64,000 nucleotides of DNA. Origin: Kiritimatiellota bacterium (lineage in GTDB: Bacteria; Verrucomicrobiota; Lentisphaeria; Oligosphaerales; JAADHN01). Both the position numbers and the translations under genes were made by a program. The DNA lies in contig JAADHN010000014.1 of assembly GCA_013151865.1 (NCBI GenBank), forward strand, positions 1 through 64,000, read 5' to 3'. This document shows positions 3,042 to 43,840 of the stretch, piece after piece (the first letter of the stretch is position 1; each line of letters begins with the position of its first letter). The notes beneath the pieces were generated by a model. It saw only the letters and a list, made by a program, of their open reading frames with translations, had not been told where the DNA came from and ran no database searches.

Positions 3042-3218
3042 CCTAAACAATGCATGAGCCATCTGCTGCGACGCCGCATCCCATCTTCAGAACATTGCTG
3101 CCGCGCATTGATCGAAGCGGTGTTTCAACACAACACGGCCGTGTCCAGCGTTCGACGCAATGACCGGAATCGTATAAGCTGCACTCTCTCGCGACAAAGT
3201 TCGTGAATTGATCAGGGC
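3042..3218 (-). repeat. Dispersed repeat A, copy 1
   Basis: One of four diverged copies of a roughly 180-base element (others at 23968, 32836 and 43661). Conserved blocks, read on the plus strand here, are aatgcatgagccat near 3050, a ttcagaacattgc block, tttcaacac near 3122, ttcgacgcaatg near 3151, and a gcgacaaagttcgtgaa block near the right end. The strand given is the direction in which the gcatgag end points, towards the TraT-like start about 47 bases away. I see no terminal inverted repeat, target duplication or conserved open frame. Confidence 0.75.
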
Positions 3219-3388
3219 AATGTTCCGCCGCCGGGACGAAACCGCGGCCTGCGAACTCCGCACACACACTGAACGCACGACCGCCGGTCGCCCCGACACA
3301 GAATAATAAGGTACCGCGCGAAACACGGGAACACAAATCCACGGTGTTTCTCCGCACCGAAACGCCCCGACTCCTTCGACAGACTCGT

Positions 3389-3478
3389 TGTTGCAATGAC
3401 TCTCAGAATTGTCCGGAGAATGTTGCAGCGACTGCAAGTTCATCTGCGCTGCGGATTCTTCGAGGCAATCAGTAAGAC
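3389..3478 (+). repeat. Dispersed repeat B, copy 1
   Basis: About 90 bases beginning ttgcaatgactctcagaatt, containing aatgttgcag and ending in tcgaggcaatcagtaag. The same blocks recur at 47090-47150 and 47303-47324. The element is in the spacer upstream of the HU-like gene and is on the same strand as it. Confidence 0.6.
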
Positions 3479-3853
3479 CGCTCCCGTATCCGGAAAGTTG
3501 CGCATACAGTGCTGTTGGCGGGGCCCGTCGGCGGGGGAGACGGGGGCGCCTGCGCCCGGTCGATCCTGCCGACTCCGCAAAAAAATCCGCCGATTATGTG
3601 GCCAACTGTTCTTTTGGGAATATGTTACGGTCGTTTGAACGATAGACAGCGTTCTTCAGTGGGGGAGACACCCGCGAAAGGTCCGGTTCGGATTCGGGGA
3701 CGGAATCGGACGGACGGGTTTCCAAGCCGAGAGTGCTGTCCGGACGGCAAATGACGAACCGGGCGTGAAGAGCATCGCTTCGGGAAGGCGGCCCTGGCAG
3801 GGCTGTATCAGTTTTCTTGAACGAGAAGTCCCCACAGAGCAAGGAGTGAAACC
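3479..3853. other. Spacer upstream of the HU-like gene
   Basis: I see no gene here. The region should hold the HU-like gene's promoter, but no clear -35/-10 pair was found. The sequence tatgtt near 3620 is only a weak -10 candidate. The arms tcgtt and aacga near 3630 form a short palindrome of unknown relevance. Confidence 0.4.
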
Positions 3854-4156
3854 ATGACAAAACGTGATCTGGCCGTGCGGGTTGCCCGGAAAACGAAGGT
3901 GCGCCAGCAGGACGTCTTGCAGATTGTTCAATTGTGCTTGGATACTCTCACCGATGAATTGGCTGCCGGACGCAGTATCGAATTCAGGAATTTCGGCGTA
4001 TTCCAGTTGACGGTTCGGAAGCCCCGCATCGGACGCAACCCCAACGCGCCGCAGAACACCGTTCAAATCCCCGAGCGGGTGACTGTCAAGTTCAAGCCCG
4101 GCAAGAAGATGAAAGAAAAAGTCAGTCGCCTCAAGCCCAGCGATATCGTTGATTGA
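3854..4156 (+). CDS. HU/IHF-family DNA-binding protein
   Basis: This 100-residue histone-like protein bends DNA as a dimer. It shows the family layout: an N-terminal helical dimerisation part starting MTKRDLAVRVARKT, then RSIEFRNFGVFQL, then the minor-groove-binding beta arm. The arm contains the typical GRNP motif (residues 61-64) and the intercalating proline. The C-terminal helix begins after VKFKPGKKMKEKV. The length is slightly above the usual 90-95. The start has an AGGAG ribosome binding site about 7 bases upstream. HU and IHF subunits cannot be separated by eye here; the arm resembles IHF more than HU. A convincing terminator follows, so the gene is probably its own transcription unit. 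Confidence 0.92.
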   Translation: MTKRDLAVRVARKTKVRQQDVLQIVQLCLDTLTDELAAGRSIEFRNFGVFQLTVRKPRIGRNPNAPQNTVQIPERVTVKFKPGKKMKEKVSRLKPSDIVD

Positions 4157-4195
4157 ACCGCAGGGCCTTCTCGACGATAGTTTTCGCACGCACAG

Positions 4196-4239
4196 GCCGG
4201 GACCGGACCGGGCAACCGGGATGTCCCGGCTTATTCTTT
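4196..4239 (+). terminator. Rho-independent terminator after the HU-like gene
   Basis: A perfect 8-bp stem pairs gccgggac (4196-4203) with gtcccggc (4223-4230). A 19-base loop can form an alternative inner hairpin. The stem is followed at once by the T-rich stretch ttattcttt. It lies 40 bases after the HU-like stop codon and before hisS. Confidence 0.6.
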
Positions 4240-4411
4240 GCGTTTGCGTGAGCGGCGGGAGGCCGTGCCCCGGGCCGGAGCGCGACATTCCCGACGGTCT
4301 GCGCATCCGACTCCAAACCGTCGAGAGCTTCCATCACCGGCAAACGACTTGACCAAGCCACCCGCAACGCCTCTTGCGCCCACTACGCAGCATGTTGGAA
4401 ACCAAACCCCC

Positions 4412-5701
4412 ATGAGCGCTCCCCTGAAACCACTTCCCGGCACCTCCGATATTTGGCCGCCGGAGGTTTACGAATGGTTGGAACTCGAGGACGCCGCCCG
4501 GCGTGTATTTCCCCTTTACGGCTATGAAGAACTCCGCACCCCGGTCATCGAGCGGACCGAACTGTTTGTGCACGGCATCGGCGATCAGACTGAAGTCGTA
4601 CAGAAGGAGATGTATACATTCGAAGACCGGGGCGGCCGGAGTCTGACGCTGCGCCCGGAGGGCACGGCGGGTGTCATGCGGGCCGTGGCGGGCCTGGGCC
4701 TTTCATCCGGCGAGGAACGCCGTGTTTTTTACCTGGGGCCCATGTTTCGCGGCGAACGCCCCGCAGCCGGACGCCGTCGGCAGTTCCATCAGGTCGGAGT
4801 CGAGGCGGTCGGGCGGAAGTCTCCTGCGGCGGACGCCGAGTGCATTCTGATGCTCCTGCATTACCTCGAGGCTGTACGGGTTCGAGACGCCCGAGTCCTC
4901 CTCAACACCCGCGGGACGGCTGAGGACCGCCGGGTCGCCTCCGAGGTGTATCGGAAGTATTTCCAGGCCCGGATCGATGGAATGTGCGAGGATTGTCGAC
5001 GGCGGGCGGGCACGAACGTATGGCGCATCCTGGACTGCAAGGAACCGCAGTGCCAAGAAGCTATCGGGGCTGCTCCGGAGATGCTCGGGCTGGTCGCCGG
5101 GGAAAGCCGTGCATTCTTCCGGGAAGTTTTGAATGTACTCGAGGCTTGCGGGGCGAACTACACCGTGGCGCCGCGCCTCGTCCGCGGCCTCGATTACTAC
5201 GAGCACACGGTGTTCGAGGTCGTTCACGACGGCCTCGGCGCCCAAAACGCCGTTGCCGGGGGCGGTCGATATCGCCTTTTCCTGCCCGGCCAAAAAGCCC
5301 CTGTGGAGGGTGTGGGTTTTGCGGCCGGACTCGAACGTCTCATTCTCGTTCGACAGGCACTCGAGGTCCGGGCCCCGGTTCGGGAAGACATCGACGCTTA
5401 CGTGGTCTGCCTGGGAGCAGCGGCGCTCCGCGTCGGCTTGGCCTTGAGCGTAAAACTCCGCCGATGCGGACTCCGCGTTTTGTGCGAACTCGGCGGCGAC
5501 CGGAGCATGAAAGCCCAGATGCGTAGCGCCAACAAAGCCGGTGCGCGTTTTGCGCTCATTCTGGGGGAACGAGAAGTCGCCGATCAGGTCGTTACCTGCA
5601 AGGCCATGCGGACGGCCGAACAAACCGAACGTCCCCTGGCGGAACTTCCCGAGTGGCTGACAGCGGCCGTGGCCACGGCCGCTTCGCGTAACAATAAGTG
5701 A
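4412..5701 (+). CDS. hisS: Histidyl-tRNA synthetase
   Basis: This 429-residue class II synthetase attaches histidine to tRNA(His). The ATG at 4412 is chosen because the family starts just before LPGTSDIWP, and the upstream extension of the frame is non-coding. Motif 2 is visible as LTLRPEGTAGVMRAV followed by YLGPMFRGERP. The histidine-specific motif appears as LVRGLDYYEHTVFE, and motif 3 as GVGFAAGLERLIL. The C-terminal ~100 residues form the anticodon-binding domain. The second His motif reads GGRYRLF where the family normally has GGRYD followed by one residue and Leu, so the usual Asp seems to be missing. The gene is followed 44 bases later by aspS on the same strand, an order also known from Bacillus, and the two are probably co-transcribed. 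Confidence 0.96.
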   Translation: MSAPLKPLPGTSDIWPPEVYEWLELEDAARRVFPLYGYEELRTPVIERTELFVHGIGDQTEVVQKEMYTFEDRGGRSLTLRPEGTAGVMRAVAGLGLSSGEERRVFYLGPMFRGERPAAGRRRQFHQVGVEAVGRKSPAADAECILMLLHYLEAVRVRDARVLLNTRGTAEDRRVASEVYRKYFQARIDGMCEDCRRRAGTNVWRILDCKEPQCQEAIGAAPEMLGLVAGESRAFFREVLNVLEACGANYTVAPRLVRGLDYYEHTVFEVVHDGLGAQNAVAGGGRYRLFLPGQKAPVEGVGFAAGLERLILVRQALEVRAPVREDIDAYVVCLGAAALRVGLALSVKLRRCGLRVLCELGGDRSMKAQMRSANKAGARFALILGEREVADQVVTCKAMRTAEQTERPLAELPEWLTAAVATAASRNNK

Positions 5702-5745
5702 TGAATGCACTTGCCCCGATGCCCCAACAACGAGCAGAGAGACAA

Positions 5746-7533
5746 ATGTCCATGAAACGAACTCATCACTGCGGCGAATTGCGCAGTTCGGACGCGGGGA
5801 CCCGGGTAGTACTCAACGGTTGGGTCCACCGCCGCCGGGATCTCGGCGGTCTGATTTTCATCGACCTCCGTGACCGGGAAGGAATCACGCAACTCGTCGT
5901 GGATCCCGCCGCGACCGCCGCGGAACAAGTGAATACGGCCCAGCTCCTGCACGACGAGTGGGTCATCGCGGCGCGGGGCACGGTACGCCAGCGCCCGGGG
6001 ACCATGGTTAATCCGCAACTTGCGACAGGTGAAATCGAGGTGGTGGTCGAAGCGCTTGATGTCCTGAACCGCGCGGCGCCAATGCCGTTTCACCTGGACG
6101 ACACGACCGTAGCCGAGGACATTCGGCTGCGCTACCGGTACCTGGAGATTCGCCGCTCCGCCATTGCGAGGAACCTGCGCCTGCGCCACCGGGTAGCGAA
6201 GCTTGTCCGCGATTTCCTGGACGCTTTGGGATTTGTCGAGATCGAGACCCCGATCCTGAGCAAAAGCACCCCCGAAGGCGCGCGGGACTATTTGGTTCCC
6301 AGCCGAGTACACCCGGGCGCGTTCTACGCCCTGCCCCAGGCGCCGCAGCAATACAAACAGCTCCTCATGGTGGCGGGGATCGAGCGCTATTTTCAGATTG
6401 CACGCTGTTTTCGCGACGAGGACCTCCGGGCAGACCGACAGCCCGAATTCACCCAGGTGGACATCGAAATGTCGTTCGTCGATCAGGCGGACGTCCTGTC
6501 GGTCAGCGAACGGATGCTGGCCCATATCGCTCGGGAAATCCTCGATGTCGAGGTACCGACGCCGTTTCCCAGATTATCGTATACCGAGGCGATGAACCGG
6601 TACGGCTCGGACAAACCGGATGTGCGCTTCGGGCTCGAACTGGCCGACCTGAGCGGGGCCCTTCAAAAGAGTAGTTTCCGCGTCTTTCGGCGCGTCCTGG
6701 ATACGGGGGGATGCGTCAAGGCAATCTCACCACAAGGGCTGAGCACGGCGTCTCGACGAACGCTGGACGCCTGGGCCGGGGAAGTGGCCGGCTTCGGTGC
6801 GAAGGGCCTCGCCTCGCTACGAGTCGAGACCGACGGCAGCGTGGGCGGCCAAGCAGCCAAATTCTTATCGGAAGACGAAAAACGCGACATCCTTGGCATC
6901 ACGGCGGCAGCGCCGGGCGACCTTATCCTGATCGTAGCCGACACTCCCAAAGTGGTCCATGCCGCTTTGGGACATTTGCGACGGGTCATTGCCCGCGACC
7001 AAGGGTTGATTTCTCCCGACCGATTCGCATTTGTCTGGGTCGTGGATTTTCCCCTGCTTGAATTCGACGACGAAAACAACCGATACGTGGCAGTCCATCA
7101 CCCTTTTACCAGTCCCCGAATCGAGGACGTGCCGTTCCTCGATTCGACACCGGAAAAGGTCCGTGCCCAGGCTTACGACGTGGTGCTCAACGGGGTCGAA
7201 ATCGGCGGCGGCAGTATCCGAATTCACGACCCCGGAATGCAGGCCCGGATGTTCGAACGTCTCGGCATTTCGGCCGAGGAGTCCGAGGACCGTTTCGGGC
7301 ACCTGTTGACCGCCTTGAAACTGGGCGCCCCGCCTCACGGCGGAATCGCACTCGGATTCGACCGCCTGGTCATGTTGCTGGCAGGGGCGGAATCCATCCG
7401 GGACGTGATTGCCTTCCCAAAAACCACTCGGGCCGCCTGTCTGATGACCGGCTCTCCGGCGCCGGTCGACGCACATCAGCTCGAAGAACTTCACATCCGT
7501 TGCACCACGGGGGTCGATGCCGACTCGCAGTAG
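5746..7533 (+). CDS. aspS: Aspartyl-tRNA synthetase
   Basis: This 595-residue class II synthetase charges tRNA(Asp), and possibly tRNA(Asn). The frame opens at 5698 against the hisS stop. The ATG at 5746 (or the one at 5752) fits best with the family start and the gagagac ribosome binding site. The N-terminal OB-fold anticodon domain (GWVHRRRDLGGLIFIDLRD) is followed by motif 1 and the flipping-loop region (SKSTPEGARDYLVPSR). Then come motif 2 (RCFRDEDLRADRQPEFTQ), the bacterial GAD insertion and motif 3 (GGIALGFDRLVMLLAG). The length is normal for a bacterial-type enzyme. Whether it is discriminating cannot be settled by eye; no amidotransferase genes are in the window. Confidence 0.96.
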   Translation: MSMKRTHHCGELRSSDAGTRVVLNGWVHRRRDLGGLIFIDLRDREGITQLVVDPAATAAEQVNTAQLLHDEWVIAARGTVRQRPGTMVNPQLATGEIEVVVEALDVLNRAAPMPFHLDDTTVAEDIRLRYRYLEIRRSAIARNLRLRHRVAKLVRDFLDALGFVEIETPILSKSTPEGARDYLVPSRVHPGAFYALPQAPQQYKQLLMVAGIERYFQIARCFRDEDLRADRQPEFTQVDIEMSFVDQADVLSVSERMLAHIAREILDVEVPTPFPRLSYTEAMNRYGSDKPDVRFGLELADLSGALQKSSFRVFRRVLDTGGCVKAISPQGLSTASRRTLDAWAGEVAGFGAKGLASLRVETDGSVGGQAAKFLSEDEKRDILGITAAAPGDLILIVADTPKVVHAALGHLRRVIARDQGLISPDRFAFVWVVDFPLLEFDDENNRYVAVHHPFTSPRIEDVPFLDSTPEKVRAQAYDVVLNGVEIGGGSIRIHDPGMQARMFERLGISAEESEDRFGHLLTALKLGAPPHGGIALGFDRLVMLLAGAESIRDVIAFPKTTRAACLMTGSPAPVDAHQLEELHIRCTTGVDADSQ

Positions 7534-7984
7534 CGTGAGCCCGGCCACAACAACAACAGAGGGTGCGTGGCCGCGCGCGAGCATGGTGCGCCCCTTCTTT
7601 TCGTTTTCGCCTGTCCGACTCCGCCAGTCTCGCTCGCATTCTCGAACTCCTGTCTCGCGACGTTGTCGAATAATAGTACAACGCCCCAAATACCGGCAGG
7701 TCACGGTCCGTTTTCTAAACGAAGGAGAGCGCACATCGCGCTCGCTCACATCCGAGCCCGGACAGGCAGCTCGGGTGTTTTCAAATAGCGGCTTTTTTTC
7801 CTGTCGAGACAGTGCAACCCGTTGTTATGCCAGTACATTACCTGAAATCAGCAACTTCGTCTTTCTTTTCGCTCCCGATGTCGGGGGCGACGAAAAAGCT
7901 GCTCGTGCTGGTTTTCGACCACGGGCACGCCCCGTCCGTTGTGGCCGCAGAGTTGAGTTTTGAGGTCTCCGAGTCAGTGTCATC
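7534..7984. other. Spacer between aspS and the MscS-like gene
   Basis: About 450 bases without a supportable gene. A weak inverted repeat (cgttgt / acaacg near 7660-7685) surrounds an AT-rich core and could be a terminator or promoter element. I cannot decide which. Confidence 0.35.
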
Positions 7985-9475
7985 ATGAACAAAGACTCCC
8001 TCAAACGGCTCGTTGGGCCAACTGTTCTGCTTCTGGTGTTCGTCCTTTCCGGGCTGAACACGGAGGGTCTCCTCCGGCAGTTCGGCTTCGACTCTCTTGC
8101 CCAGGTCAAGACGGTGTTCATGTACTCCGTCCAGATCGGCCTCTGGTTCTCCGCTGCCTTCTTCCTCAACCGGCTTGTGTCGGTATTCTTTTGGGACGGC
8201 GTGGTGGCCCGCACGGTGAAGGGGCAGATCCCCCGCCTGTTGAAAGACACCACGGCTCTCATTCTGTACGCCACGGCCGGCACCGGCGTCATGGCCTTCG
8301 TGTTCGACAAGTCGGTGGTGGGCGTTTGGGCCACCTCCGGAGTGGTGGGGATCGTTCTGGGGTTTGCGCTGCGCAACATGATTCTGGACCTTTTCACCGG
8401 CTTGGCGGTCAACTTGGACCAGCCCTACAAGCTTGGCGATTGGATCATGATCAACGAGAGTCTGGGCGAAGAGGGGAACCTCATCGGCCGCGTCGAAGAG
8501 ATCAACTGGCGGACCACGCGACTGCGGACTACGGACAACAACCTCCTGGTCGTCCCCAACAGCGTCCTCGGCCAAAAAGTGATCACCAACTTCATGCGAC
8601 CCGGCGAGCAAAGTCGTTTCGAACTCGATTTCGCCCTGGACTTTTCGGTCCCGACCGAGCGGGTCTTGCGTGTCATGACCGCCGCGGTCCGGGCCGTGGC
8701 CGGCTCCCCCGAGGGACCGCTCGTCGAGCCGCCTCCCAAAGTACGCGTGACGAGCATCAGCGAGCTGGGTGTTCAGTATCGCGTCCGCTATTGGATCGTT
8801 CCGCGAGAAGTCTCGCCGTCCAAGGCACGCCACACCGTGATCACCAGCATTCTCAAGCATTTGCACCAGGCCGGCATCACACTCGCGTACCCGAAGCAGG
8901 ACGCGTATTTTGCGCCCATGCCCAAACGGCAGCTCGAGACCGGCCCGGTCGAAGACCGGTGCAGTCTTCTTTCACGAGTCCCCTGGCTGGATGCCCTGGA
9001 TGAGGACGAACGTCGGGAGCTGGCCGGCGCCCTGATCGAACGCCGGTTCGCCGCTGGCGATACGTTGATGCGACAGGGTGAGAGCGGTGAGTCCATGTTC
9101 ATTGTGGTCGAAGGACTCGCCGAGGCGTTCGTGCACTCGGGCAAGCATGACCGTGAAGTCAAAGTCGGGCAATTGCTCCCCGGCGATTTCATCGGAGAAA
9201 TGTCTTTGCTGACCGGCGCGTCGCGTTCCGCCACAGTCCGGACTGCGACCGACCTCGTGGCGTACGAAGTGCGCAAAGAACACCTCGCCCCACTCCTCGA
9301 GGCGCGTCCCGAGCTGGCCGACGCAATCGGCAGCATTCTCGCAAGCCGGGCGGCACAGACCGACCGGGCCTTGGCGGCCCTTGATGTGCCGCCGGAGGAC
9401 GTTCCGAGTCAGACAGGCACACAGAGGATCGTCGCCGGGATCAAGACGTTCTTCAAGAGTGTGTTCGGGGATTGA
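7985..9475 (+). CDS. MscS-family channel with C-terminal cyclic-nucleotide-binding domain
   Basis: This 496-residue inner-membrane protein has at least three transmembrane segments in the first ~140 residues. Next comes the MscS pore/beta domain, recognisable by GVVGIVLGFALRNMILD and LGDWIMINE. The NSVLGQKVITNF segment leads into the alpha/beta domain to about residue 300. Residues ~340-440 form a cNMP-binding domain. Its phosphate-binding cassette reads GEMSLLTGASRSATVRT, which keeps the Glu and Arg normally used to hold cAMP/cGMP. MscS channels release solutes under membrane tension, and the added domain suggests ligand gating, as in the bacterial bCNG family. The gene is monocistronic by spacing. 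Confidence 0.9.
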   Translation: MNKDSLKRLVGPTVLLLVFVLSGLNTEGLLRQFGFDSLAQVKTVFMYSVQIGLWFSAAFFLNRLVSVFFWDGVVARTVKGQIPRLLKDTTALILYATAGTGVMAFVFDKSVVGVWATSGVVGIVLGFALRNMILDLFTGLAVNLDQPYKLGDWIMINESLGEEGNLIGRVEEINWRTTRLRTTDNNLLVVPNSVLGQKVITNFMRPGEQSRFELDFALDFSVPTERVLRVMTAAVRAVAGSPEGPLVEPPPKVRVTSISELGVQYRVRYWIVPREVSPSKARHTVITSILKHLHQAGITLAYPKQDAYFAPMPKRQLETGPVEDRCSLLSRVPWLDALDEDERRELAGALIERRFAAGDTLMRQGESGESMFIVVEGLAEAFVHSGKHDREVKVGQLLPGDFIGEMSLLTGASRSATVRTATDLVAYEVRKEHLAPLLEARPELADAIGSILASRAAQTDRALAALDVPPEDVPSQTGTQRIVAGIKTFFKSVFGD

Positions 9476-9561
9476 GCAGGATGATCGGGGCCCGATGATG
9501 ACGGCGTGCCGGGATCGTCGCCGGTTCTGCAGACGTACAGCCGAACGGGAGAGGAGAGACT

Positions 9562-22274: not shown

Positions 22275-23858
22275 TCACTTCCATTCCACCAGAGGGACCT
22301 GCCCGCCGTTCTTTAAGCGAAGCGTAAGCTTTTTGGGCTTGCCCTTGATTTTTCCCTGCCCGCGAAAAACCCAAACCCAGCCCCATCGGCCGTTGCCCCC
22401 GCTCCAGGCTCGGAATTGCCACTGCCCCAGGAATTTCGTTTTGCGGGGTGTGATGGTTTGGTTCGGTACGTCCAACGCCAAATTCTGCTTCCGCCCCTCT
22501 CGCTTCAACTTCAATTCGGCATTCTTGGGTATCTTGACCATAAGGTGAGCCGGCAGCGATACGGTCGTGGCCTCGAGCCGCACTGCACCGCTCACCGCAT
22601 CGGGCACTGCGGCACGCACCAGCGCGTACCCCTCCCGGAAGTTCACCCGTTGTGCACGATCACTGCGGGCCAGCAAGGGAAGCGGCGGGCCCGATTTCTT
22701 CTTTTTCTTGGCATCCGGCTTCACGGCGGCCATGGGAAGTCCACCCTCGAATCCGGCCCCGAACCGGTAGGCGGCGGCATCCAGAAGTTCGCCCCGGACG
22801 GGCTCGCCGACGACATTCTTTGAGAGTTCCGCAAGCAGTTCGATCAACACACCGGCGGCATCCGGCATCACGTTCTGTTTGATCTCCTCTCGGAGTACGT
22901 CCACCACCTCGCGCATACTGACCCTCCCGGCTTTCTCCGGGTGGAACGCGACCAGATGGACCGCACCCTTGGGATTCACCAGGATCTTTCCGCCGGGTCG
23001 CAAAGGGACTTTTATCTTGATAGACGGCCCTCCCCCCTTCGGTGTCAGCTTAAGGGCTTGGCGTTCTCTCATGCCCACGTACAGTTCGAAGAAGCAGGCG
23101 GCCCCTTTAGGCAAATCACGCCGCAAGCGACGCCATCCGAGCACAGCCGTGTAATCGGCCTTACCCGGATTAAGCACCGTGACGCGTGTAGGCAAGCCCC
23201 GAATCGATGAGATCAGCGGACCGATCCCCAGCTTGTAGCCGTACCAAAGGGCCAAGAGGCCGGCCAGGAGTTGCCCTGAAATCAACAACGTACGCTTCAG
23301 AGCAAACTTCTTCGGGAGAACGGGCTTGGCGGGCCCGCCCTCCATCTCTTCCAACTCGCTTTCTTCGGCAGGCTCCCCCGTTGGGCTCTCGTCCCCCACG
23401 CGAAGCAAGGAAAAATGAATCTTTCGGCGTTGCTCGGCCTCGTCCTCTTCAGTGTAGATGGGCCGTTCCAACCGAATGTGCGGGAGCTTGTGCAGGACCT
23501 TTTCCTCACCGGTCTCCGGGTCGGTGAGTCGCAGCCGCAGGTCGTCCTTCTTGTCGCCCAGTGTGGCGGCTGCGTCCTCCGCGTGCAATTGGGCGGCCAA
23601 CGGCCGCCACGTCCCGTTGTCGAGCACGAGGTCCGTCGGCAGAAGGGCGTTTGCCTCGAACGCGGCGGTCACCTGCTCCCGGGTCATGGCCACCCCGTCC
23701 TCGGAATCGCCCGCCTTGAAGACCAGCACCACCTCGGGGTCCGACTCCGACGGCACTCTGATGGAAACCTGACAGTTCCGGCAATCCGCCGAGCCACCGG
23801 CAAAATCGTCCGTCACTCGATATGCCTCGCCGCAGGAAGGACAACGGAATAGAATCAT
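22275..23858 (-). CDS. Zinc-ribbon, GYF-like, single-pass membrane protein of unknown function
   Basis: The start is the ATG at 23858 with GGGAGAGG six bases upstream; 527 residues. The N-terminus is a zinc ribbon with CPSC (6-9) and CRNC (26-29), as in MJ0042-type finger domains. Residues ~43-92 resemble a GYF_2-like domain (VAMTREQVTAAFEAN, NGTWRPLAAQL). An acidic linker (135-175) precedes one transmembrane helix (about 189-210). The remaining ~310 residues are probably extracytoplasmic, with beta-rich character and a Lys-rich insert. This architecture (cytoplasmic zinc ribbon, one helix, large outer part) recurs in PVC bacteria, from memory, without assigned function. Repeat A copy 2 lies 110 bases upstream. 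Confidence 0.7.
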   Translation of the reverse strand: MILFRCPSCGEAYRVTDDFAGGSADCRNCQVSIRVPSESDPEVVLVFKAGDSEDGVAMTREQVTAAFEANALLPTDLVLDNGTWRPLAAQLHAEDAAATLGDKKDDLRLRLTDPETGEEKVLHKLPHIRLERPIYTEEDEAEQRRKIHFSLLRVGDESPTGEPAEESELEEMEGGPAKPVLPKKFALKRTLLISGQLLAGLLALWYGYKLGIGPLISSIRGLPTRVTVLNPGKADYTAVLGWRRLRRDLPKGAACFFELYVGMRERQALKLTPKGGGPSIKIKVPLRPGGKILVNPKGAVHLVAFHPEKAGRVSMREVVDVLREEIKQNVMPDAAGVLIELLAELSKNVVGEPVRGELLDAAAYRFGAGFEGGLPMAAVKPDAKKKKKSGPPLPLLARSDRAQRVNFREGYALVRAAVPDAVSGAVRLEATTVSLPAHLMVKIPKNAELKLKREGRKQNLALDVPNQTITPRKTKFLGQWQFRAWSGGNGRWGWVWVFRGQGKIKGKPKKLTLRLKNGGQVPLVEWK

Positions 23859-23967
23859 GGAACGCCTCTCCCGAGCCGCAAAGCCCCCGATGCAGTACTG
23901 CCCCGGGCGCTGGGGAAACATGCCGTGTTTTTGGAAAAACGCAACCGTCGCGCTCCTGTGAAGCGAA

Positions 23968-24144
23968 CCTGAATAATGCATGAGCCGTCTATTGCGATGA
24001 CGCATCGCACACAACTTCAGAATATTGCCGCCGCCCGCCGACCAAGACGGTGATTCAACACGGCCCTGTCGGGGGTTCGACGCAATGGCCTGAACCCGTA
24101 TGAGCTACGGCCTCTCGCGACGAAGTCCATGAATCAATCGCGCC
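23968..24144 (-). repeat. Dispersed repeat A, copy 2
   Basis: This is the same element as at 3042, in the same orientation on the plus strand. It begins cctgaataatgcatgagcc, has ttcaacacgg and ttcgacgcaatgg in the middle, and ends gcgacgaagtccatgaat. Its gcatgag end faces the zinc-ribbon gene 110 bases away. The other flanking gene starts 290 bases beyond the opposite end, and that 290-base stretch shows nothing recognisable. Confidence 0.78.
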
Positions 24145-30651: not shown

Positions 30652-30652
30652 A

Positions 30653-31669: not shown

Positions 31670-31698
31670 ACACGACGGACATGCTTGGAGGTGCAACG

Positions 31699-32533: not shown

Positions 32534-32835
32534 AGCGCCCAATCCGGCGGGGGGACCGCCGCGGGGCAGATCTGAGTGGAGATTCCCAAGACGCAGGCGG
32601 GCCGAAGAACGAGCAAAAAGTGGTCCTGGAACAGACGCTATCAAGAAGTCGGGACGGTTGTGGATCGAATTCACGGATTGGTCGGATCAGTCGACCTCGG
32701 GAAGGCGTCGTTTCATACGTATCCCTTCACGACAGTGGGCGGGGCCCAGTTGTTTCCAGTCTCGGAATACGGTCGAGCGCAAGTCACCCTCCAGCCTCGA
32801 TAGAATCGCCCAAACAATTCCGAGGCGCTCCGTAA
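32534..32835. other. Gene-free spacer before repeat A copy 3
   Basis: About 300 bases. A hairpin (cggcgg / ccgccg near 32543-32560) follows the Minf_1886 gene but has no T run. No gene is supportable; the open frames on the minus strand run through the repeat and look non-coding. Confidence 0.4.
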
Positions 32836-33019
32836 CCCCGATCGATTCATGGACCTCGTCGCGAGCGAGCGCAACTCGTACGGATTCGAACCGTTGCGTC
32901 CAACGCAGGACGAGGCTGTGTTGAAACACCGTCCAGAGGGCGGCGGCGGGCGATAGCACTGTTCCGAAGGCATCTACGGTACGGCTTCGCACCCGATGAC
33001 TCATGCACGATTCAGGCTG
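32836..33019 (+). repeat. Dispersed repeat A, copy 3
   Basis: Reverse-complement orientation relative to copies 1 and 2. It contains gattcatggacctcgtcgcg at the left, gtgttgaaacacc near 32917, and gactcatgcacgattcagg at the right. The right end is only 15 bases from the GTG start of the secreted EEP-fold gene, so the element would lie in that gene's promoter or 5' leader. Confidence 0.75.
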
Positions 33020-33033
33020 ACCCGGGAGTGCCG

Positions 33034-34125: not shown

Positions 34126-34372
34126 CGACGCGTTATGGGCCACAAGGTGACGATCGGATAGAGACGCCGACGCCGAAGCGGCGGGACGGCTTCCGCGTGA
34201 ACGTCTGTCTGCGTGCGACATGTGCAAAGGCAGGCGGGACTCGGGCAGGCCGGAGGAATAACCGGAGTGGCGCCGTGTCCAAATCCCGCATGCTGTCGAA
34301 TGCCAACGAATTGATCCGGTGCAGCCGACCTCGTGACCGCGGCGGCTGACCACGGCGCTCTCGGGGAAACGT

Positions 34373-35353: not shown

Positions 35354-35650
35354 TGTGGGCATTGTACTTGTCGTCATCGTCTTCCATGCAACTATCGATA
35401 CCGTGCGTGCCCTTCCGACCGCGAGCCGGACGGCGCGGCGGTTTCGGGTCGGGGCGATTGCAGACTTCGCCGGACACCCACGCAGTAAGCCCGGAGGGTT
35501 GGGGCGAGCGGCCGCACAACCGAAATGGGCGCCCTTCGCGTAACCCGCGGTGCCGGAGATAGGTATGACGGGATTTGCCGGCTGCAGCGCCCGCCGCTAC
35601 AGGCAAAGAGAGCCGCCCGCCCCGCCCAAGTTGTCCGCAGCGGACCCGGC

Positions 35651-36379
35651 TCACAGGTATTGGAAGACCCGGACCAAGGGAATGATCGTCTCCAGCAACT
35701 GGTCCATCTCCCATTGTTTGATTTCCGACACCGGCACGGCGTCTTCGAGTTTGAACTTGCCGCTGCGGGTCCGTCGGAGCGAATGCAGGTGCGCGCCGCA
35801 GCCCAGGGCCTTGCCGATGTCGGCGCAGAGCGTTCGAACGTACGTCCCCTTCGAGCAGTGCACTTCGAATTCGACATCGGGTGGATCGAAGCCCAGCAGC
35901 CGCAGGGAATGGATCGTGACCGGTCGCGGTTCGCGCTCGATTTCAATCCCTTTGCGGGCCAGTTTGTAGAGCGGTCGGCCGTCCTTCTTGACCGCGGAAA
36001 CCATGGGCGGGACCTGGAGGATCTCTCCCGTAAAGCTCTCGAACGCGTCCTCGAGCTGTTCTCGAGTGACACCGCTCGGGTCGCTCTCCGCCACCACTTT
36101 GCCATCCCTGTCCTGGGAATCGGTTTCGATCCCGAGTCGCATGGCGCCCGAGTAAACTTTGTCTTGACCGCTGAGGCGCCCGGAGAGTTTGGTCGCGCGG
36201 CCCAACACCAAGACCAGTAGACCGGTCGCCGCCGGGTCCAACGTCCCGCAGTGGCCGACTTTGCGGATGCGAAAGCGTCGGCGAACGCAGTTGACCACGT
36301 CGTGGCTGGTCCATTCTTCCGGCTTGTCCACGAGCAGGATTCCGCTCTCGGGCGGGATATTCACGGCAGGATTGCTCAT
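35651..36379 (-). CDS. truB: tRNA pseudouridine-55 synthase
   Basis: This 242-residue enzyme makes pseudouridine 55 in the T-loop of tRNAs. It has GILLVDKPEEWTSHDVV, the catalytic KVGHCGTLDPAATGLL (the Asp), YSGAMRLGIETDSQD and FEVHCSKGTYVRTLC. The C-terminus is short and lacks a clear PUA domain, as in the shorter bacterial TruB type. Its ATG overlaps the nrnA stop by four bases, so the two are coupled. About 300 bases separate it from ribF; this gap shows nothing recognisable. Confidence 0.95.
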   Translation of the reverse strand: MSNPAVNIPPESGILLVDKPEEWTSHDVVNCVRRRFRIRKVGHCGTLDPAATGLLVLVLGRATKLSGRLSGQDKVYSGAMRLGIETDSQDRDGKVVAESDPSGVTREQLEDAFESFTGEILQVPPMVSAVKKDGRPLYKLARKGIEIEREPRPVTIHSLRLLGFDPPDVEFEVHCSKGTYVRTLCADIGKALGCGAHLHSLRRTRSGKFKLEDAVPVSEIKQWEMDQLLETIIPLVRVFQYL

Positions 36380-37365
36380 TCAGAAAGGATCCTTTCGAGG
36401 AGTTCGATGGTTTTTGCCTGTGCGGCGGGCAGGTCGAGGTCTCTCACTTCGGCGCCGGCAGCGGCCCGGTGTCCGCCGCCGCCGAGCGCGTGCGCCACGC
36501 GGTCGACCCGGATCTGGGGCGACCGCGAACGCAACGACACCTTGACGAATTCCGGTTGGGCCTGAAAAAGCGCCGCAACCAGTGGACCGTCAAAACCGCG
36601 CAGGACGTCTATGACCCCCTCGATATCGGCTTGGTTGAGGCCGGCTTTTCGAAGGCGTGCCGGATCGAGAACAGCATAGACCACTCGCCCGTCGCAGGCA
36701 AACCGCGCACTCGCCAGGAGATCCGACTCAAGTCGGCGCCGCTCGAAGGGTTCCCGGAAAAAGAGACCGTCCATGATCGCGGCGCAGTCGGCGCCCCGAT
36801 CCACCAACTCGGCGGCTGTTCGTAATGCAGCCGCATCGGTGTTGGCAAAACGAAACCCGCCCGTGTCCATCACCAGCCCCACCAGAAACCACGTGGCCGC
36901 TTCCGAAAGAAATTGGACACCCAATGCAGGCAACAGCTCGGCCAGCATTGCCGCCGTGGCCGCCTTGCCGGAGTCCACCCATACGGCGTTCCCGAATGCC
37001 GTATTGTCCGGATGATGATCGACATCGAGCACGTTGACAACGTCTCGCGCAGTCTGCCAGTTCGGCGGTTTCTCGACGCGTTCCCAACTCGTCGTATCCA
37101 GGGCCACTACCGACAGCCCGGGGGGCAGCGGGGGCGGAGCGCCCACAAAGAGGCCAGGCGTTTCCGGCAGCAAGCGCGAGTAGCGGCGGGCAAGCGGCCC
37201 TTTCAAGTAGCCGATACTCTCCCGGCCGGCAGCCCGCAGGGCGAGGAGCAGCCCCACCACGGAGCCTATTGCGTCCCCGTCCGGTCGTTGATGACTCAGA
37301 AGGAGCAGAGGGCCGGGGCGTTCCAGAAACCTGCGGGCCTCGGCGATGGAACCGGTGTACTGCAT
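36376..37365 (-). CDS. nrnA: NrnA-like DHH-family oligoribonuclease / pAp phosphatase
   Basis: This 329-residue protein has the DHH metal motifs LSHQRPDGDAIGS, VVALDTTSWER and the signature VLDVDHHPDN. The DHHA1 domain ends in ALGGGGHRAAAG. Bacterial NrnA degrades short RNA oligomers and pAp. Its location between rbfA and truB is the normal place in many bacteria. A 243-base gap separates it from rbfA, longer than usual within an operon. Confidence 0.92.
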   Translation of the reverse strand: MQYTGSIAEARRFLERPGPLLLLSHQRPDGDAIGSVVGLLLALRAAGRESIGYLKGPLARRYSRLLPETPGLFVGAPPPLPPGLSVVALDTTSWERVEKPPNWQTARDVVNVLDVDHHPDNTAFGNAVWVDSGKAATAAMLAELLPALGVQFLSEAATWFLVGLVMDTGGFRFANTDAAALRTAAELVDRGADCAAIMDGLFFREPFERRRLESDLLASARFACDGRVVYAVLDPARLRKAGLNQADIEGVIDVLRGFDGPLVAALFQAQPEFVKVSLRSRSPQIRVDRVAHALGGGGHRAAAGAEVRDLDLPAAQAKTIELLERILSE

Positions 37366-37607
37366 GAAAAAACCCTGGTCCTCCCAAATTCGGTGGATCG
37401 CCTGCGCCCCCGTGCGATTCTCGGCTGCAAATCGTGGAGCGGGGGCGAATCGGGTATCCTGCCGGGCGATCCTCGTGCCGGTTGGCTCCGCCGTTCGGGG
37501 TCGGTTGCGGGGCGAGTTCTGTGTCGATGGATTGGCGCTGGACGTCGTTTGTTCGGATCATGCCGGCACGCATTCGAATGAATATCGGATGCGGACCGCC
37601 CTCGCCG

Positions 37608-37988
37608 TCAGCAGGCCCCTGGTTTCGGATCGGACGGGGGTCCCTCGGCCGGAGCCAGTTTATCCAACAGCGAAATGATTCGGTCCGCCTCGGCGAACGT
37701 ATCGTCGGGGATGAATTCGAGTACCGGGGTATACTTGATCCGTACCGCACGTGCCAGCCCCTGCTGCAACAGTGCACGTTGTTTGGCCACGACTGCCATG
37801 GCCGCATTTTGCTGGCTGGGGGTTCCGTACGTGCTTACGAATACCTTGGCCGTACGCAGGTCGGGGGCCACCCGGACCCGCGTGACGGTAACCAACACAT
37901 CCACCCGAGGAGCGATCTCCGCCTCGAAAAGGTCGGCGAGCACCCGTTGGATGCTGTGGTTGACGCGTTTCATCCGGTCCTGTTTCAT
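37608..37988 (-). CDS. rbfA: Ribosome-binding factor A
   Basis: This 126-residue protein matures the 30S subunit. It starts at the ATG at 37988 (MKQDRMKRVNHSIQ), with an alternative ATG at 37973. The KH-like fold is visible in VLADLFEAEIAPRVDVLVTVTRV (given here as VLADLFEAEI and VLVTVTRV) and the DLRTAKVFVS strand. RIKYTPVLEFIPDDT is typical of the C-terminal part. It is separated from infB by the purine permease gene. Confidence 0.92.
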   Translation of the reverse strand: MKQDRMKRVNHSIQRVLADLFEAEIAPRVDVLVTVTRVRVAPDLRTAKVFVSTYGTPSQQNAAMAVVAKQRALLQQGLARAVRIKYTPVLEFIPDDTFAEADRIISLLDKLAPAEGPPSDPKPGAC

Positions 37989-38100
37989 CAGGTTCGATCC
38001 AATCTGCTTTGTCGAATTGCCCGATCTCACCGCGGCATGTTTCGGGGAACCCGGCAGTCTTGTGCTTCAACGACGGTCGGCAAGGATGTGTCGGAGGTGT

Positions 38101-39543
38101 TCAGCCCGGAAGTCGTGCCCTGACCAGAACAAAATACAGAACGAGCATAGCCGCCATGACAAGCATGACGGGTCGGCATTCCCGAGCCCGGCCGCTCCCG
38201 ATCTTGATGATCGGATAACTCACAAACCCCAAGGCAAGACCGTCGGCAATGCTGTAACTCAACGGAATGCCGATTACGATCAGAAAAGCGGGGATGCTTT
38301 CGCTGACGTCGGCCCAATCGATTCGGAGGGCGTTCCGCATCATCATGGCGCCCACCACTACCAGGGCCGGCGCGGTGATCGGCGCGTAACTGCCCACCAT
38401 GCGAATCACGGGGCTGAAAAAGAGCGCCACCAGGAACAAGACGGCAACGGTCACGGCGGTCAAACCTGTCCGCCCTCCCTGCTCGACGCCGGCGGCGCTC
38501 TCAATGAAACTTGTGACCGTACTGGTGCCGAACGCGGCGCCGGCAACCGTCCCGACCGCATCCGAGAGCAGGGCTTGGCGAGCCCGGGGCAAACGATTGT
38601 CCCGGATGAACCCCGCCTGCTCGGATACCCCGATCAGTGTGCCGATGGTGTCGAAGACATCCATCACCAGAAACACCAGAATGAACGGCAGCATGGTGAA
38701 ATCGAGGGCGTGCCGGATATCCATTTTGAAAAAGGTCGGTCCGATGGAGGGCGGCATCGAAACGAGGGCCGTCGCCGGTGCAAAACGCGTCATCAGCATC
38801 GACTCTTTCACGGCGGTCCCGTCGCGGAGCGCCGCCGGCCAATACGAGACCGTGGCCCGGAGCAAGAGGCAGAGCACGGTTGCGCCCAAGATCCCCCAAA
38901 GGATTGCCCCTTTGCGACCGCGGGCCCGCAGCACCGCCATCAGCAACAAGCCGAAGAAGAACACGATCAGGTCCGGGGAGGCGAGGTGCGCATTCAACCT
39001 TACGGCGGTGCCCGGATCTTTCTGGATCAGACCGGCGTTCTGCAAGCCGATGAAGGCGATAAAAAGACCGATCCCCACTGCGATGGCGTTCTTCATGCTG
39101 GGGCTGATGGCGTCAACGATGGCGGCGCGCACTCCGACGAGGGAGAGCAGGAGAAAAAGAACGCCGGAGATCAGGACCACGCCCAAGGCAACTTGCCAAG
39201 CCGTGGTTTGACCCGACCTCACAACCGGGAGCAGGGCCGCCGCCGGCAGTACCGAGAACACGAAGAAAAAATTCTCGCCCATGCCGGGAGCCTGGGCGAT
39301 CGGGTAACGTGCGTACAGACCCATGATGGCGCTGGCCAACGCGGCCGAAACGCAAGTTGCCGTGGTGACGGCCCCGAAATCAAGGCCGGTCTTCATGTCG
39401 AACATCACACCGGAAAGTACGGCCGGCTGTACGAAGATGATGTAGGACATGGTCAGGAACGTCGCCAGGCCCGCGGCCGTTTCACGACCGAACACAGCGG
39501 TCGTCGGCGGTTCCCCCAGCCACTGCGAGAGGACATCTTTCAT
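38101..39543 (-). CDS. NCS2-family purine permease (AzgA/PbuG-like)
   Basis: The start is the ATG at 39543 behind GGAGGGG; 480 residues with 12-14 hydrophobic helices. The conserved opening GRETAAGLATFLTMSYIIF, the QAPGMGENFFFVF motif, the VFLVMDVFDTIGT segment and FGTSTVTSFIESAAGVEQG are hallmarks of the AzgA-type hypoxanthine/guanine/adenine proton symporters. It sits between infB and rbfA on the same strand with short gaps (91 and 112 bases), so it is probably co-transcribed with translation-factor genes, an unusual place. No purine riboswitch was recognised upstream. Confidence 0.92.
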   Translation of the reverse strand: MKDVLSQWLGEPPTTAVFGRETAAGLATFLTMSYIIFVQPAVLSGVMFDMKTGLDFGAVTTATCVSAALASAIMGLYARYPIAQAPGMGENFFFVFSVLPAAALLPVVRSGQTTAWQVALGVVLISGVLFLLLSLVGVRAAIVDAISPSMKNAIAVGIGLFIAFIGLQNAGLIQKDPGTAVRLNAHLASPDLIVFFFGLLLMAVLRARGRKGAILWGILGATVLCLLLRATVSYWPAALRDGTAVKESMLMTRFAPATALVSMPPSIGPTFFKMDIRHALDFTMLPFILVFLVMDVFDTIGTLIGVSEQAGFIRDNRLPRARQALLSDAVGTVAGAAFGTSTVTSFIESAAGVEQGGRTGLTAVTVAVLFLVALFFSPVIRMVGSYAPITAPALVVVGAMMMRNALRIDWADVSESIPAFLIVIGIPLSYSIADGLALGFVSYPIIKIGSGRARECRPVMLVMAAMLVLYFVLVRARLPG

Positions 39544-39634
39544 GATTCGCCCCTCCATCCGGAAAAGCGCCTTCGGCTTCGCCCCGTGTCCGACTCGCGA
39601 ACGACCGGAACGACCCCATGGCACAAGATGCGGA

Positions 39635-41683
39635 TCAGAGTTCGGGCGCGGTCTCCACGTACCGTGAAACCTGGATCAGGTCGCCAACCTCGAAATCCTC
39701 GAAATTGTCGAGGCGAATCCCGCACTCCTGGCCCGCCCGAACCTGCTGCACTGTATCCTGGAAGTGGCGGAGAGACTGGATCGTCCCGTTGTAGATGACC
39801 TCGTCGTTGCGCACCACTTTGGCGTTGCAGCCGGCCTCGACAACCCCCTCGAGAACACGACAACCGCAGATCTTGCCCGTCTTGCTGACTTGGAAAACCT
39901 GCAGGATTTCCGCGCGTCCGAGCGAGACCTCCCGTCGTTCCGGCCCCAAACGTCCGCGCAAAGCGTCTTTCACGTCCTCGATCAACTCGTAAATGATACC
40001 GTAGAGACGAATCTCAACACCTTCATGTTTCGCCAAGCGGTTGACGCCCGGCATGGCACGAACGTGGAAGCCCAAGACAATCGCGTCGGACGCCGAAGCC
40101 AAGAGCACGTCGTTCTCGGTGACTTCCCCCGCCCCGCTGTGGATAATGCGGATGCTGATTTTCTCCGACTGAATTTTCCCGAGAGAATCGATGATCGCCT
40201 CCACCGATCCCCGAGTGTCCGCTTTGACGATGACATTCAGTTCTTTCCGTTCCCGCTCCTCGATTTCCTGGAACAAATCCTCGAGGGTCGTGTGTCGGGC
40301 CACGGACAATTCCCCGGTCCGCCGCTCCATCTGGCGCTCTTCCGCTTCCTGGCGCGCCGCGACTTCGCTCTCCGGGACCGAAATCGCTTCCCCCGCTTCG
40401 GGAACCCCCGACAAACCCAGGACCTTCACCGGCGTGCTGGGGCCCGCATGGCGAACCCGCTTTCCCCGGTGGTCGATCAGGGCTCGGACTCGACCCCAGC
40501 ACGCGCCGGCCAGCACAGGATCGCCCACGTGTATCGAACCGTTCCGGACCAAGACGTTCGCCGTCGGCCCCATGCCCGTCTCGAGCTGGGCCTCGATCAC
40601 CACCCCCCGGCCCGGAATGTCTGGATTGCCGCGCAGTTCCATCACTTCGGCTTCGAGCAGGATACGTTCGAGCAGGTCGTCGATCCCTTCGCCGGTCGCC
40701 GCAGAGACACGGACCACCCCCACGTCACCACCCCATTCCTCCAGGGCCAGTCCTTGCTCCTGCAGTTGGAGCATCACCCGGTCCGGCTTGGCGCCGGGAA
40801 GGTCCATCTTGTTGATCGCCACTACAATAGGCACCTCAGCCGCCTGGGCATGGTTGATCGCCTCAACGGTCTGAGGCATCACGCCGTCGTCCGCAGCCAC
40901 CACCAAGACCACGATGTCCGTGGCATTCGCACCCCGGGCCCGCATGGCCGTGAAAGCTTCGTGGCCCGGCGTGTCGATAAAGGTGATCTGATTGCCCTGC
41001 CACCGAACCACACTCGCACCGATGTGCTGCGTGATGCCGCCAATTTCGCTGTCGGCCACATGCGTCTTGCGAATGGCGTCCTGCAACGACGTCTTGCCAT
41101 GGTCCACGTGCCCCAAAAAAGCCACAACAGGCGGCCGGGGGACTTTCGCCTCATCCACGGCTTCCGGAGTCGGGCGCCGGGCGCGTTGCTTCCGGCTCCC
41201 AGCACCGCGCCGGGCAGCCACCAAGGCAAAGCCGTGACGCTCGCAAACGCGTGCAGCAATCTCCGGCTCCACCACTTGATTGATGGCCGCGAAAACGTTC
41301 AACCCCATCAGCTCGCCGATGAGTTCATTGGGCTTGCAACCAAGGGCCTCGGCCAAATCCCGGACGATGATGGGGGGTTTCAGGTGGAGTTCCGGGCGTT
41401 CGGCCTCGTCTTCCTCGTCTTCCTCTTCCGCGGCGCCCCGGCCGACGCGCGCCCCGGTCGGTTCCGCCGTCCCTTCAACGGGCGCCAAAGTCGCCATTGC
41501 GGCCGCCTCGCGTTTCTTGCGCTCGGCGGTCACGTGTTCACGAATCAATTCGGCGAACTCGCCGTCGATCGAACTGGAATGACTCTTGGCCTCGATACCC
41601 TCCTGTTCCAAGAGCGCAAGGAGGTCGCGGTTGCTGAGCCCCAGTTCCCTGGCAAGGTCGTAGACTCTTACCCGGTCGCTCAT
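39635..41683 (-). CDS. infB: Translation initiation factor IF-2
   Basis: This 682-residue GTPase delivers fMet-tRNA to the ribosome. The frame extends upstream, but [17 protein letters not shown] at 41683 with GAGGAC upstream is the family start. An IF2_N domain (4-55) and an acidic linker ([10 protein letters not shown]) come first. A second IF2_N-like domain with [20 protein letters not shown] precedes the G domain with [16 protein letters not shown] and NKMD. Domains II-IV follow to the C-terminal end. The N-terminal part is short compared with enterobacteria but normal for many phyla. Confidence 0.96.
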
Positions 41684-41919
41684 GGGCATTGTCCTCATAT
41701 TGTGAGCCTGTCCACATAAATCTCGGGGGCCGCTCTGCAGCACGGAGGAGCGCAGAGTGGGCAATGCCCGGGGCCGCGACATGACGCCGCCACCCGAGAG
41801 GCAACGGTCCGCGCCCGCAGACGGCGTGGGGAATGCCCTCCGAAATCCGACGCGCGACCACGACCCTTTTGTGGGCTGGCTATGTTATGGTTCCTGAACG
41901 CCCGGAATACCGGGGCGCT

Positions 41920-43170
41920 TCAGCCCTCGAGGCGTTCGCGGGCCGCGGCGATGATCTCGCGAGCCCGGTCGAGATCGAGCCCTTCCAGATTCGCCAGATC
42001 TGCGGCCTCCGCCGCCAGAATCCCCTCGAGCGAGATGAAGCCGTTCCGGACCAGGGCCTCGGCCGTTTCACGGCCAATGCTCGGGATTTGGGCCAAGGCC
42101 TCGATGGCACGCTGCACTTTGTGCTCGAACCCGATCCGCTCCGGCTTCTCCATCCGGTTGATGTCGATCCGCCAACCGATGAGCTTCCCCGCCAGACGGG
42201 CATTTTGCCCGCGCCGGCCAATGGCCAAAGAAAGCTGGTCTTCCGGAACATCCACACGGATGGTGTGCGACTCTTCGTCCACCTCCGCGCCAGCCAGCTT
42301 GGCGGGTTGCAGAGCGCTGGCGGTGAATTCCCGGATGTCCGCGGACCAAGGGATTACGTCCACTTTCTCTCCACCCAATTCCCGGACCACGGTCTTGACC
42401 CGGTTCCCACGCAAGCCCACACACGCGCCGACAGGGTCGACACGCGGATCGTTCGAAGTCACCGCAATTTTCGTCCGGTGGCCCGCTTCCCGGGCGATGG
42501 CCTTGATCTCCACCACGTTCTCCGCAATTTCCGCGACTTCACGCTCGAACAAGCGGACAACAAACTCGGGACGAGACCTGGAAACCTGCAAACTGGGCCC
42601 CGGACGGTCGGCATTCACGTCGATCAGCAGGGCCGTGATATGGTCCCCGGGCTGATAGTCCTCGCCCGGAATGCGTTCGGGGTAGCGCATCACGCCCTCG
42701 GCCCGGTGAAAGTCGATGTAGACCTCCCCGTGTTCCACCCGGCGCACTACACCCGTAATCAAACCGTCCAATAGATCTTGGAACTCTTCCGAAATCCGGC
42801 TCTTCTCCGCCTGTCGAAGACGTTGCAGGATCGTCTGTTTCGCGTTCTGCGCCGCGATCCGACCGAAGTTGGCCGGCGTGACCTCCCAATCCACTATATC
42901 CCCCACGTTGACATCGGGAAAACGCCGGCGAGCCCGTGTCAACAGAATCTCCGAATCGCGATGCGTCACCTGCTCCACCACCGTCAATCGGGCAAAAGCC
43001 TGAATGTCGCCCGTCTTGTGGTTGATCTTCACATGCAAATCGTTGGCCGGACCGACCGCCTTGCGGGCCGCGGAGAGCAAAGATTCCTCGACCAAAGCGA
43101 ACAACGACTCGCGGTCGATCCCGCGCTCGCTCTCGAGGTAATCGAAAACTGCCAGCAGTTCGCTGTTCAT
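41920..43170 (-). CDS. nusA: Transcription termination/antitermination factor NusA
   Basis: This 416-residue protein starts at the ATG at 43170 (MNSELLAVFDYLESERG). It binds RNA polymerase and RNA. The N-terminal polymerase-binding domain runs to about residue 125. The S1 domain (GVVRRVEHGEVYIDF) follows, then KH1 and KH2, marked by RVDPVGACVGLRGNRV and LSLAIGRRGQNARLAGKL. A single C-terminal helix-hairpin-helix repeat (IPSIGRETAEALVRNGF) ends the protein. It is the first gene of the operon; rimP, which often precedes it, is absent here. A 236-base gap before infB shows nothing recognisable. Confidence 0.95.
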   Translation of the reverse strand: MNSELLAVFDYLESERGIDRESLFALVEESLLSAARKAVGPANDLHVKINHKTGDIQAFARLTVVEQVTHRDSEILLTRARRRFPDVNVGDIVDWEVTPANFGRIAAQNAKQTILQRLRQAEKSRISEEFQDLLDGLITGVVRRVEHGEVYIDFHRAEGVMRYPERIPGEDYQPGDHITALLIDVNADRPGPSLQVSRSRPEFVVRLFEREVAEIAENVVEIKAIAREAGHRTKIAVTSNDPRVDPVGACVGLRGNRVKTVVRELGGEKVDVIPWSADIREFTASALQPAKLAGAEVDEESHTIRVDVPEDQLSLAIGRRGQNARLAGKLIGWRIDINRMEKPERIGFEHKVQRAIEALAQIPSIGRETAEALVRNGFISLEGILAAEAADLANLEGLDLDRAREIIAAARERLEG

Positions 43171-43495
43171 CGCGCTCGACTTTCTGTTCTGTAACCTGAC
43201 ACCGTCGCCTAAGCCGCTCCCCGCGCGGCAAGACAAATCCCAACGATCCATTCGCCTGTTCGGTGGCCGGCAGCGGACCGACAGCCCTGCCTCAGCCCGA
43301 CGGATGCGACCGCCCTCCGGAAACCGCGATACGCGCCCGAGATTCGGGACCGCGCGCGGAAAAAACACCCGCTCGGATGCTCTCATGCCAAACCCGTCGC
43401 AACAAGCACCCGCGGAGAACAAACAAAAAAGCGGGACGGCGGCCGTGCCCACTTCAGTATCGGTACTCGCGCCTGTCTTAGAAGTACGTCTTTGC

Positions 43496-43523
43496 ACTAT
43501 AACGGCGGTACTGTTGTTTGCAA
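43496..43523 (-). promoter_or_regulatory. Candidate sigma-70-type promoter of the nusA operon
   Basis: On the minus strand, TTGCAA (43518-43523) and TATAGT (43496-43501) are separated by 16 bases. The -10 box differs from TATAAT at one position. Transcription would start near 43489, leaving a ~320-base leader before nusA. The surrounding stretch is locally AT-rich in an otherwise GC-rich spacer. Confidence 0.4.
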
Positions 43524-43660
43524 CCACGCTGGATTGTCTGTTTGCGCTCCCGGCCGGTGTGGCATATCCGGTTCGATCGACTATGGTATATCCGTGCCCA
43601 AAAGGACCGGACGCGGACCGTTTGGCAGGGCGCACAAAAAGAGTCTGAGGCCGGATCGAA

Positions 43661-43840
43661 GCCCTGATTCGTTCATGGACTTCGTGGCGGGATGGCGCAG
43701 CTTGCACGGACTCAAATCATTGCGTCGAAGGCTGGACGAGGCCGTGTTGAAACGCCGCCTCGGTCGGTGAGCGGCAGCAGGGCAGTGTTCTGGAGGCACG
43801 CGAGAGGCGCAGCAGCAGATGGCTCATGCATTATTCAGGC
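43661..43840 (+). repeat. Dispersed repeat A, copy 4
   Basis: Reverse-complement orientation relative to copies 1 and 2. It has gattcgttcatggacttcgt at the left, cattgcgtcgaagg near 43719, gtgttgaaacgcc near 43745 and ggctcatgcattattcagg at the right. The right end points to the TPR gene, whose start is 264 bases further. Confidence 0.78.

Follow-up and report, generated by a model that had tools for sequence, protein, structure and literature searches.

INTRODUCTION

Several described systems resemble, in part, the element reported here. Bacterial MITEs such as QMITE2 of Coxiella, ERIC, and Correia are short and noncoding, carry terminal inverted repeats (TIRs), duplicate their target, and lie between genes in tens to hundreds of copies. 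Hairpin-forming MITEs are already known: the transcripts of bacterial MITEs are predicted to form a long stable hairpin, and those of Correia are cut by RNase III, as covered in a review in which IS1380 is not mentioned (PMC10969869). The IS1380 family (PF13701) has been used as the prokaryotic outgroup of piggyBac (PMC10813416), a eukaryotic system with a 4-bp TTAA-type target for which TTAG and CTAA variants have been reported. The RAYT-associated REP/BIME sequences, finally, are dispersed intergenic palindromes, with REPs measuring 20 to 40 bp and bearing GTAG or CGTC tags (PMC3733652).

The element described here is a 175-bp non-autonomous transposon, a MITE, that shares the general properties of QMITE2, ERIC, and Correia. 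Unlike them, it has ends and a target (YTAR) of the IS1380 type, and its hairpin and its length are kept by compensatory change in many families from several classes of one phylum. To our knowledge, there is no case of such compensatory conservation for QMITE2, ERIC, or Correia. With IS1380 it has in common the CC..GG ends, the outer ~16 bp, and the duplication of 4 bp at YTAR, but it carries no transposase gene, and the IS ends lack both the hairpin and the basal motif of its interior. It is likened to piggyBac by target type alone, not by sequence, and it differs from REP/BIME in its 175-bp length, its TIRs, and its duplicated targets.

RESULTS AND DISCUSSION

Four copies in the window

Repeat search, alignment, and a covariance model recovered four homologous copies in the window (the whole 64-kb stretch of DNA that was analyzed), as the original prediction had reported, with similarity far above chance (best covariance-model E = 5e-62) and at a density above the genome average (Table 1). 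The sense strand of copy 1 is the strand with the 5' end CCTGAT.AATTCATGAACTTCG, and the end marked by gcatgag is the sense 3' end of the element. Target-site duplications have been lost in all four.

Table 1. Copies of the element and their TIRs in the window
Feature	Position	Strand	Context
Copy 1, 175-bp hairpin MITE	3042..3216	-	Divergent gene gap
Copy 2	23968..24142	-	Divergent gene gap
Copy 3, 180 bp with small insertions	32837..33016	+	Sole tandem-gap copy of the four
Copy 4, 177 bp	43663..43839	+	Between nusA (-) and TPR gene (+)
TIR of copy 1, sense 3' end, CCTAAACAATGCATGA, decayed	3042..3057	+	
TIR of copy 2, CCTGAATAATGCATGA	23968..23983	+	
TIR of copy 4, CCTGAATAATGCATGA	43824..43839	-	

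The neighboring genes had all been taken to encode membrane or exported proteins. This is supported for TraT (PF05818), the exo/endonuclease/phosphatase (PF03372), and the TPR/YfiO-like protein, whereas no Pfam family matched the protein encoded at 22275-24014. The surroundings of copy 4 showed no sigma-70-like promoter. Searches against Rfam 15 at the gathering score gave no match for the window or for loci L033 and L145; the best match below threshold, sR38 (E 0.04), was taken as chance and rejected as an RNA identity.

The window holds two other repeat pairs. The first (1319-1435 and 53645-53764, 80 to 91% identical in blocks) returned only these two copies and one 24-base match in a genome search, and so is a local duplication, not a dispersed family. 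The second is a 51-bp pair (3390-3440 and 47090-47140, 82% identical, GTTGCAATG...CTGCAAGTT) and is unrelated to the hairpin element.

Anatomy and decay in the source genome

The source genome is a 6.21-Mb draft assembly in 176 contigs; its rhamnosidase, GH39, and hydantoinase/DUF1638 genes are no more than a hint of an environmental bacterium that degrades polysaccharides. A DNA search scored 40 matches in it, and the covariance model scored 150 places, of which ~140 were clear, fewer than the hundreds per genome first estimated; 142 distinct copies or fragments were extracted, with a mean identity of 78% to their consensus. When the copies were aligned with their flanks, homology ended abruptly at CC...GG. 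The consensus is 175 bp long with imperfect TIRs (CCTGAWTAATKCATGA), its termini being CCTGATTAATTCATGA... and the inverse of CCTGAATAATGCATGA..., where the original prediction had seen no terminal inverted repeat. The whole 175 nt forms one imperfect hairpin (-92 kcal/mol for an early consensus, z -7.4 against shuffles). The final consensus folds at -96.1 kcal/mol in the sense and -69.3 in the antisense direction, and the corresponding values for the relative G016 are -107.0 and -84.7.

The interior is noncoding: almost every frame contains stops, and the sequence shows no 3-base periodicity. Neither a transposase nor a conserved open reading frame was found inside the element, as had been noted at the outset. 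A recurring NFVAR..S-like frame was rejected as coding sequence, being a by-product of a conserved nucleotide motif and interrupted by stops in most families. All but 1 of 129 copies lie outside predicted genes. Deletion derivatives of ~50 to 82 bp that keep both element ends were also seen (L126:1376-1425 on contig C60 of the source genome, L260:503-579, and L263:503-584), as were foldbacks of 160 to 230 bp with similar ends and targets and other interiors (L274:42-201 in G121, L275:1503-1662 in G122, L261, L262, L133, and L143), which are possibly sister MITE families.

RNAalifold applied to the copies of the source genome alone gave almost no consensus structure; paired cells amounted to 82.8%, against 82.3% expected with independent arms, and single changes produced GU in 666 cases and AC in 598. 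Settled copies thus decay almost neutrally: the ~140 in this genome are old insertions that lie between genes and continue to drift.

No orientation bias relative to genes

Each of the four window copies does turn its gcatgag end toward a start codon, an arrangement from which a promoter or 5'-leader function for the downstream gene had been proposed. For three of these (copies 1, 2, and 4) the gap is divergent, and a start would be faced whichever way the element pointed, leaving copy 3 as the only informative one. Across the source genome, we examined the 126 copies with both neighbors present, with genes predicted from codon usage by a program that had been trained on the loci. The gcatgag end was the one closest to a start in 57 cases, and the opposite end in 62 (P = 0.71). 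Within tandem gaps, 38 copies had their sense strand running with the genes and 46 had it running against them (P = 0.45). The kinds of gap occupied (84 tandem, 35 divergent, and 7 convergent) were in proportion to intergenic length, and orientation in G016 was likewise random (configurations 7, 5, 5, and 4). As a general property, a promoter or 5' leader is therefore refuted by the random genome-wide orientation. Given also the almost independent drift of paired sites described above, we regard a host promoter or leader facing the downstream gene as extremely improbable, though single copies could possibly have been co-opted in this way. The original prediction had made a regulatory role depend on orientation and conserved structure together; orientation proved random, whereas structure is strongly conserved across the phylum, as a property of a mobile element.

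A stop codon lies within 6 bp of 13 of the 129 copies, while none abuts a start. Insertion at TAG would spare the gene, because the YTAR target includes TAG stop codons. In G016, young copies (loci L067, L069, L070, L076, and L079) sit directly at a predicted gene end, with a YTAG target that holds the TAG stop. Random orientation also speaks against any cis function in host transcripts: a benefit through the processing of host mRNA becomes less likely, and an RNA acting in trans, or a function in transposition itself, is favored. More generally, repeats that seem to face start codons in a short window should be read with caution, as such a pattern easily arises from divergent gaps.

Target duplication and a probable IS1380 partner

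Relatives of the same order (G016, G002, G012, G004, and G015) retain intact ends, and most of their copies lie between 4-bp YTAR repeats. Among the 35 elements with NTAN on both sides, the YTAR flanks were identical in 29 pairs of these young copies (shuffle mean 15, P < 0.0002), and the nonpalindromic TTAG/CTAA flank pairs agreed in 9 of 10. In the old copies of the source genome, a residual signal remains (1.83 versus 1.47 matching bases), and such a mere trace of duplication is as expected for old insertions. TIRs, target duplication, a gene-less interior, high copy number, and intergenic position are all present, and the alternative raised in the original prediction, a MITE-like passenger, is thereby borne out, including by IS1380 transposons with the same ends.

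IS1380 genes of the same order and class have the same YTAR target and CCTGAATAATTCATGA-type ends. Such loci were bounded on both sides in five cases (L145, L147, L214, L217, and L225) and on one side in four (L146, L216, L219, and L122). The boundaries of L145 are CTAA|CCTGATCAATTCACGA and CTAG|CCTGGATAATTCACG, and the targets on both sides are CTAA for L214 and CTAG for L147. Separately, IS1380 elements of the same class (L145, L147, L214, and others) were seen to duplicate TTAA, CTAG, TTAG, and CTAA, a set of targets similar to the TTAA type that piggyBac uses. The likeness between MITE and IS1380 is limited to the outer ~16 bp, and the internal motif of the MITE was absent from all 18 IS1380 ends examined.

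One genome, G053, holds an IS1380 remnant together with MITEs having closely similar ends. No recognizable IS1380 gene above the cut-off was found in the source genome or in the MITE-rich G016, both drafts, consistent with either loss of the driver or draft assembly. An intact IS1380 was found in no genome alongside young MITEs whose end was exactly the same. An IS4-like transposase (L124, contig C141) was considered as a partner and rejected, as it is without the ends of the element. Movement in the manner of an IS1380-driven MITE is nearly certain, and we infer from the shared ends that an IS1380 transposase would act on the element in trans.

Spread across the phylum

A first covariance model (R1) had poor RNAalifold structure, since decayed copies from a single genome carry almost no covariation, and it was replaced by a second (R2) built from several genomes. 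R2 found the element in other orders and classes; the phylum-wide sample comprised 388 genomes, of which 12 had it. About 17 genomes from several classes carry it, and the distribution is patchy. Two of them, G050 and G052, had ~120 listed matches each, a figure that may include antisense matches, as in G016. The length is 173 to 178 bp in nearly all genomes, and the target duplication is CTAG, TTAG, or CTAA even where the TIR has changed, as in G412 (CGCACATTATTCATG) and G273 (CCCGCATTTCTCACC). The TIR also differs in one G317 family (CGGGGGTTATTCATG). No IS1380 with ends matching these three differing TIRs was found. The element was not found on plasmids or viral contigs, and no description of it was found in open-access papers. 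An exact-pattern search of named genomes gave a match in a Hymenobacter MAG, which was dismissed as chance, with only 20 bases of the model matched.

A single-strand fold is conserved in transposing lineages

The consensus sequences of the source genome and G016 are 61% identical and have 47 pairs in common, 10 of which have changed on both sides. For a broader test of covariation, we used 14 sequences from six genomes and 65 pairs. These pairs were formed in 92.9% of cases, compared with 83.7% after shuffling and no more than 42% in slid versions. Double changes occurred in 29 of the 65 pairs (shuffled, 16.0), and the covariation score was 0.338 (shuffled, 0.171; slid versions, at most 0.101).

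Apparent compensatory double changes would arise in any long palindrome when template switching between the arms corrects quasi-palindromes, so that a hairpin might be kept by mutation alone, with no selection. Such a process restores Watson-Crick pairs in a strand-neutral way and predicts neither an excess of G.T and G.A on one strand, nor a fixed length, nor a basal motif more conserved than the TIRs, all of which were found; the arms in the source genome, moreover, diverge nearly independently. We consider this explanation highly improbable.

For the strand bias, 20 family representatives were aligned to their own reverse complements, with both strands treated alike and the sense strand set by the conserved basal motif rather than by energy. 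Mismatches were strongly asymmetric, with 165 G.T against 56 A.C and 123 G.A against 26 C.T, and GT exceeded AC in 19 of the 20 families. Because the families are partly dependent on one another, the associated P values (1e-13 and smaller) are too optimistic; the direction is nevertheless nearly the same throughout. The basal motif (UUCGUNRCGAGAG / CUCGCAGYAGA) had mean pairwise identities of 0.82 and 0.80, against 0.69 for the TIRs and 0.47 to 0.49 for the interior, and arm pairing ran on to the apical loop.

These data bear on a reading in which the element simply has long TIRs and the hairpin is a by-product of arms bound as double-stranded DNA by one transposase and co-evolving with it. 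In its favor, being inverted repeats is what defines the arms, and a need for like recognition of both ends would be expected to yield double changes. Mismatches between such arms should be strand neutral, however, contrary to the asymmetry seen; autonomous IS1380 elements share the outer ~16 bp only and lack the internal motif; and pairing extends to the apical loop. This reading is unlikely. Instead, selection on a single-strand fold in lineages that keep transposing is what we infer from the covariation and the strand bias.

Whether that strand acts as RNA or DNA is a separate matter. Because no DNA mismatches are more stable than G.T and G.A, the strand bias would equally fit a single-stranded DNA hairpin, folded during replication or transposition and recognized like integron attC sites, and by itself it cannot separate the two. 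The duplicated 4-bp YTAR and the CC..GG ends, common to the DDE-type IS1380, point instead to double-strand cut-and-paste, and neither a constant length nor a conserved apical loop is needed in known single-stranded DNA systems of such transposases; we judge the DNA hairpin distinctly unlikely. The selected molecule is probably RNA, which is favored because a basal internal loop, a capped apical stem, and full-length pairing are among the selected features.

Proposed model and implications

Taken together, we propose a MITE moved by IS1380 whose one-strand hairpin fold is selected in transposing lineages, a model that we hold to be likely as a whole. An IS1380-family DDE transposase would recognize the outer ~16 bp (CCTGAWTAATKCATGA) and insert the element at YTAR with duplication of 4 bp, the interior being gene-less. 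One strand would fold as a single full-length hairpin with the conserved basal motif, and compensatory change would keep this fold in lineages still transposing. The transcribed hairpin RNA is predicted most likely to help the element spread or be tolerated.

More tentatively, and with the chances somewhat against it, these elements may constitute a phylum-wide mobile hairpin-RNA family, that is, a gene-less transposon whose ~175-nt fold is selected for transposition or tolerance, with a basal motif resembling a protein-binding site, and which may have been carried through changes of TIR and, by implication, of transposase partner. As far as our tools reach, the IS1380/YTAR MITE family is new and so, above all, is the finding that compensatory change has preserved the fold and length of a gene-less transposon throughout a phylum.

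The common view of MITEs is that they are passive remnants, left by deletion within insertion sequences, in which the ends alone are constrained. Here, a whole phylum has kept the length, a full-length fold, and an internal motif that is better conserved than the ends, even as settled copies decay. These observations suggest that a functional structured RNA (or single-stranded DNA) can be part of a transposon that has no genes.
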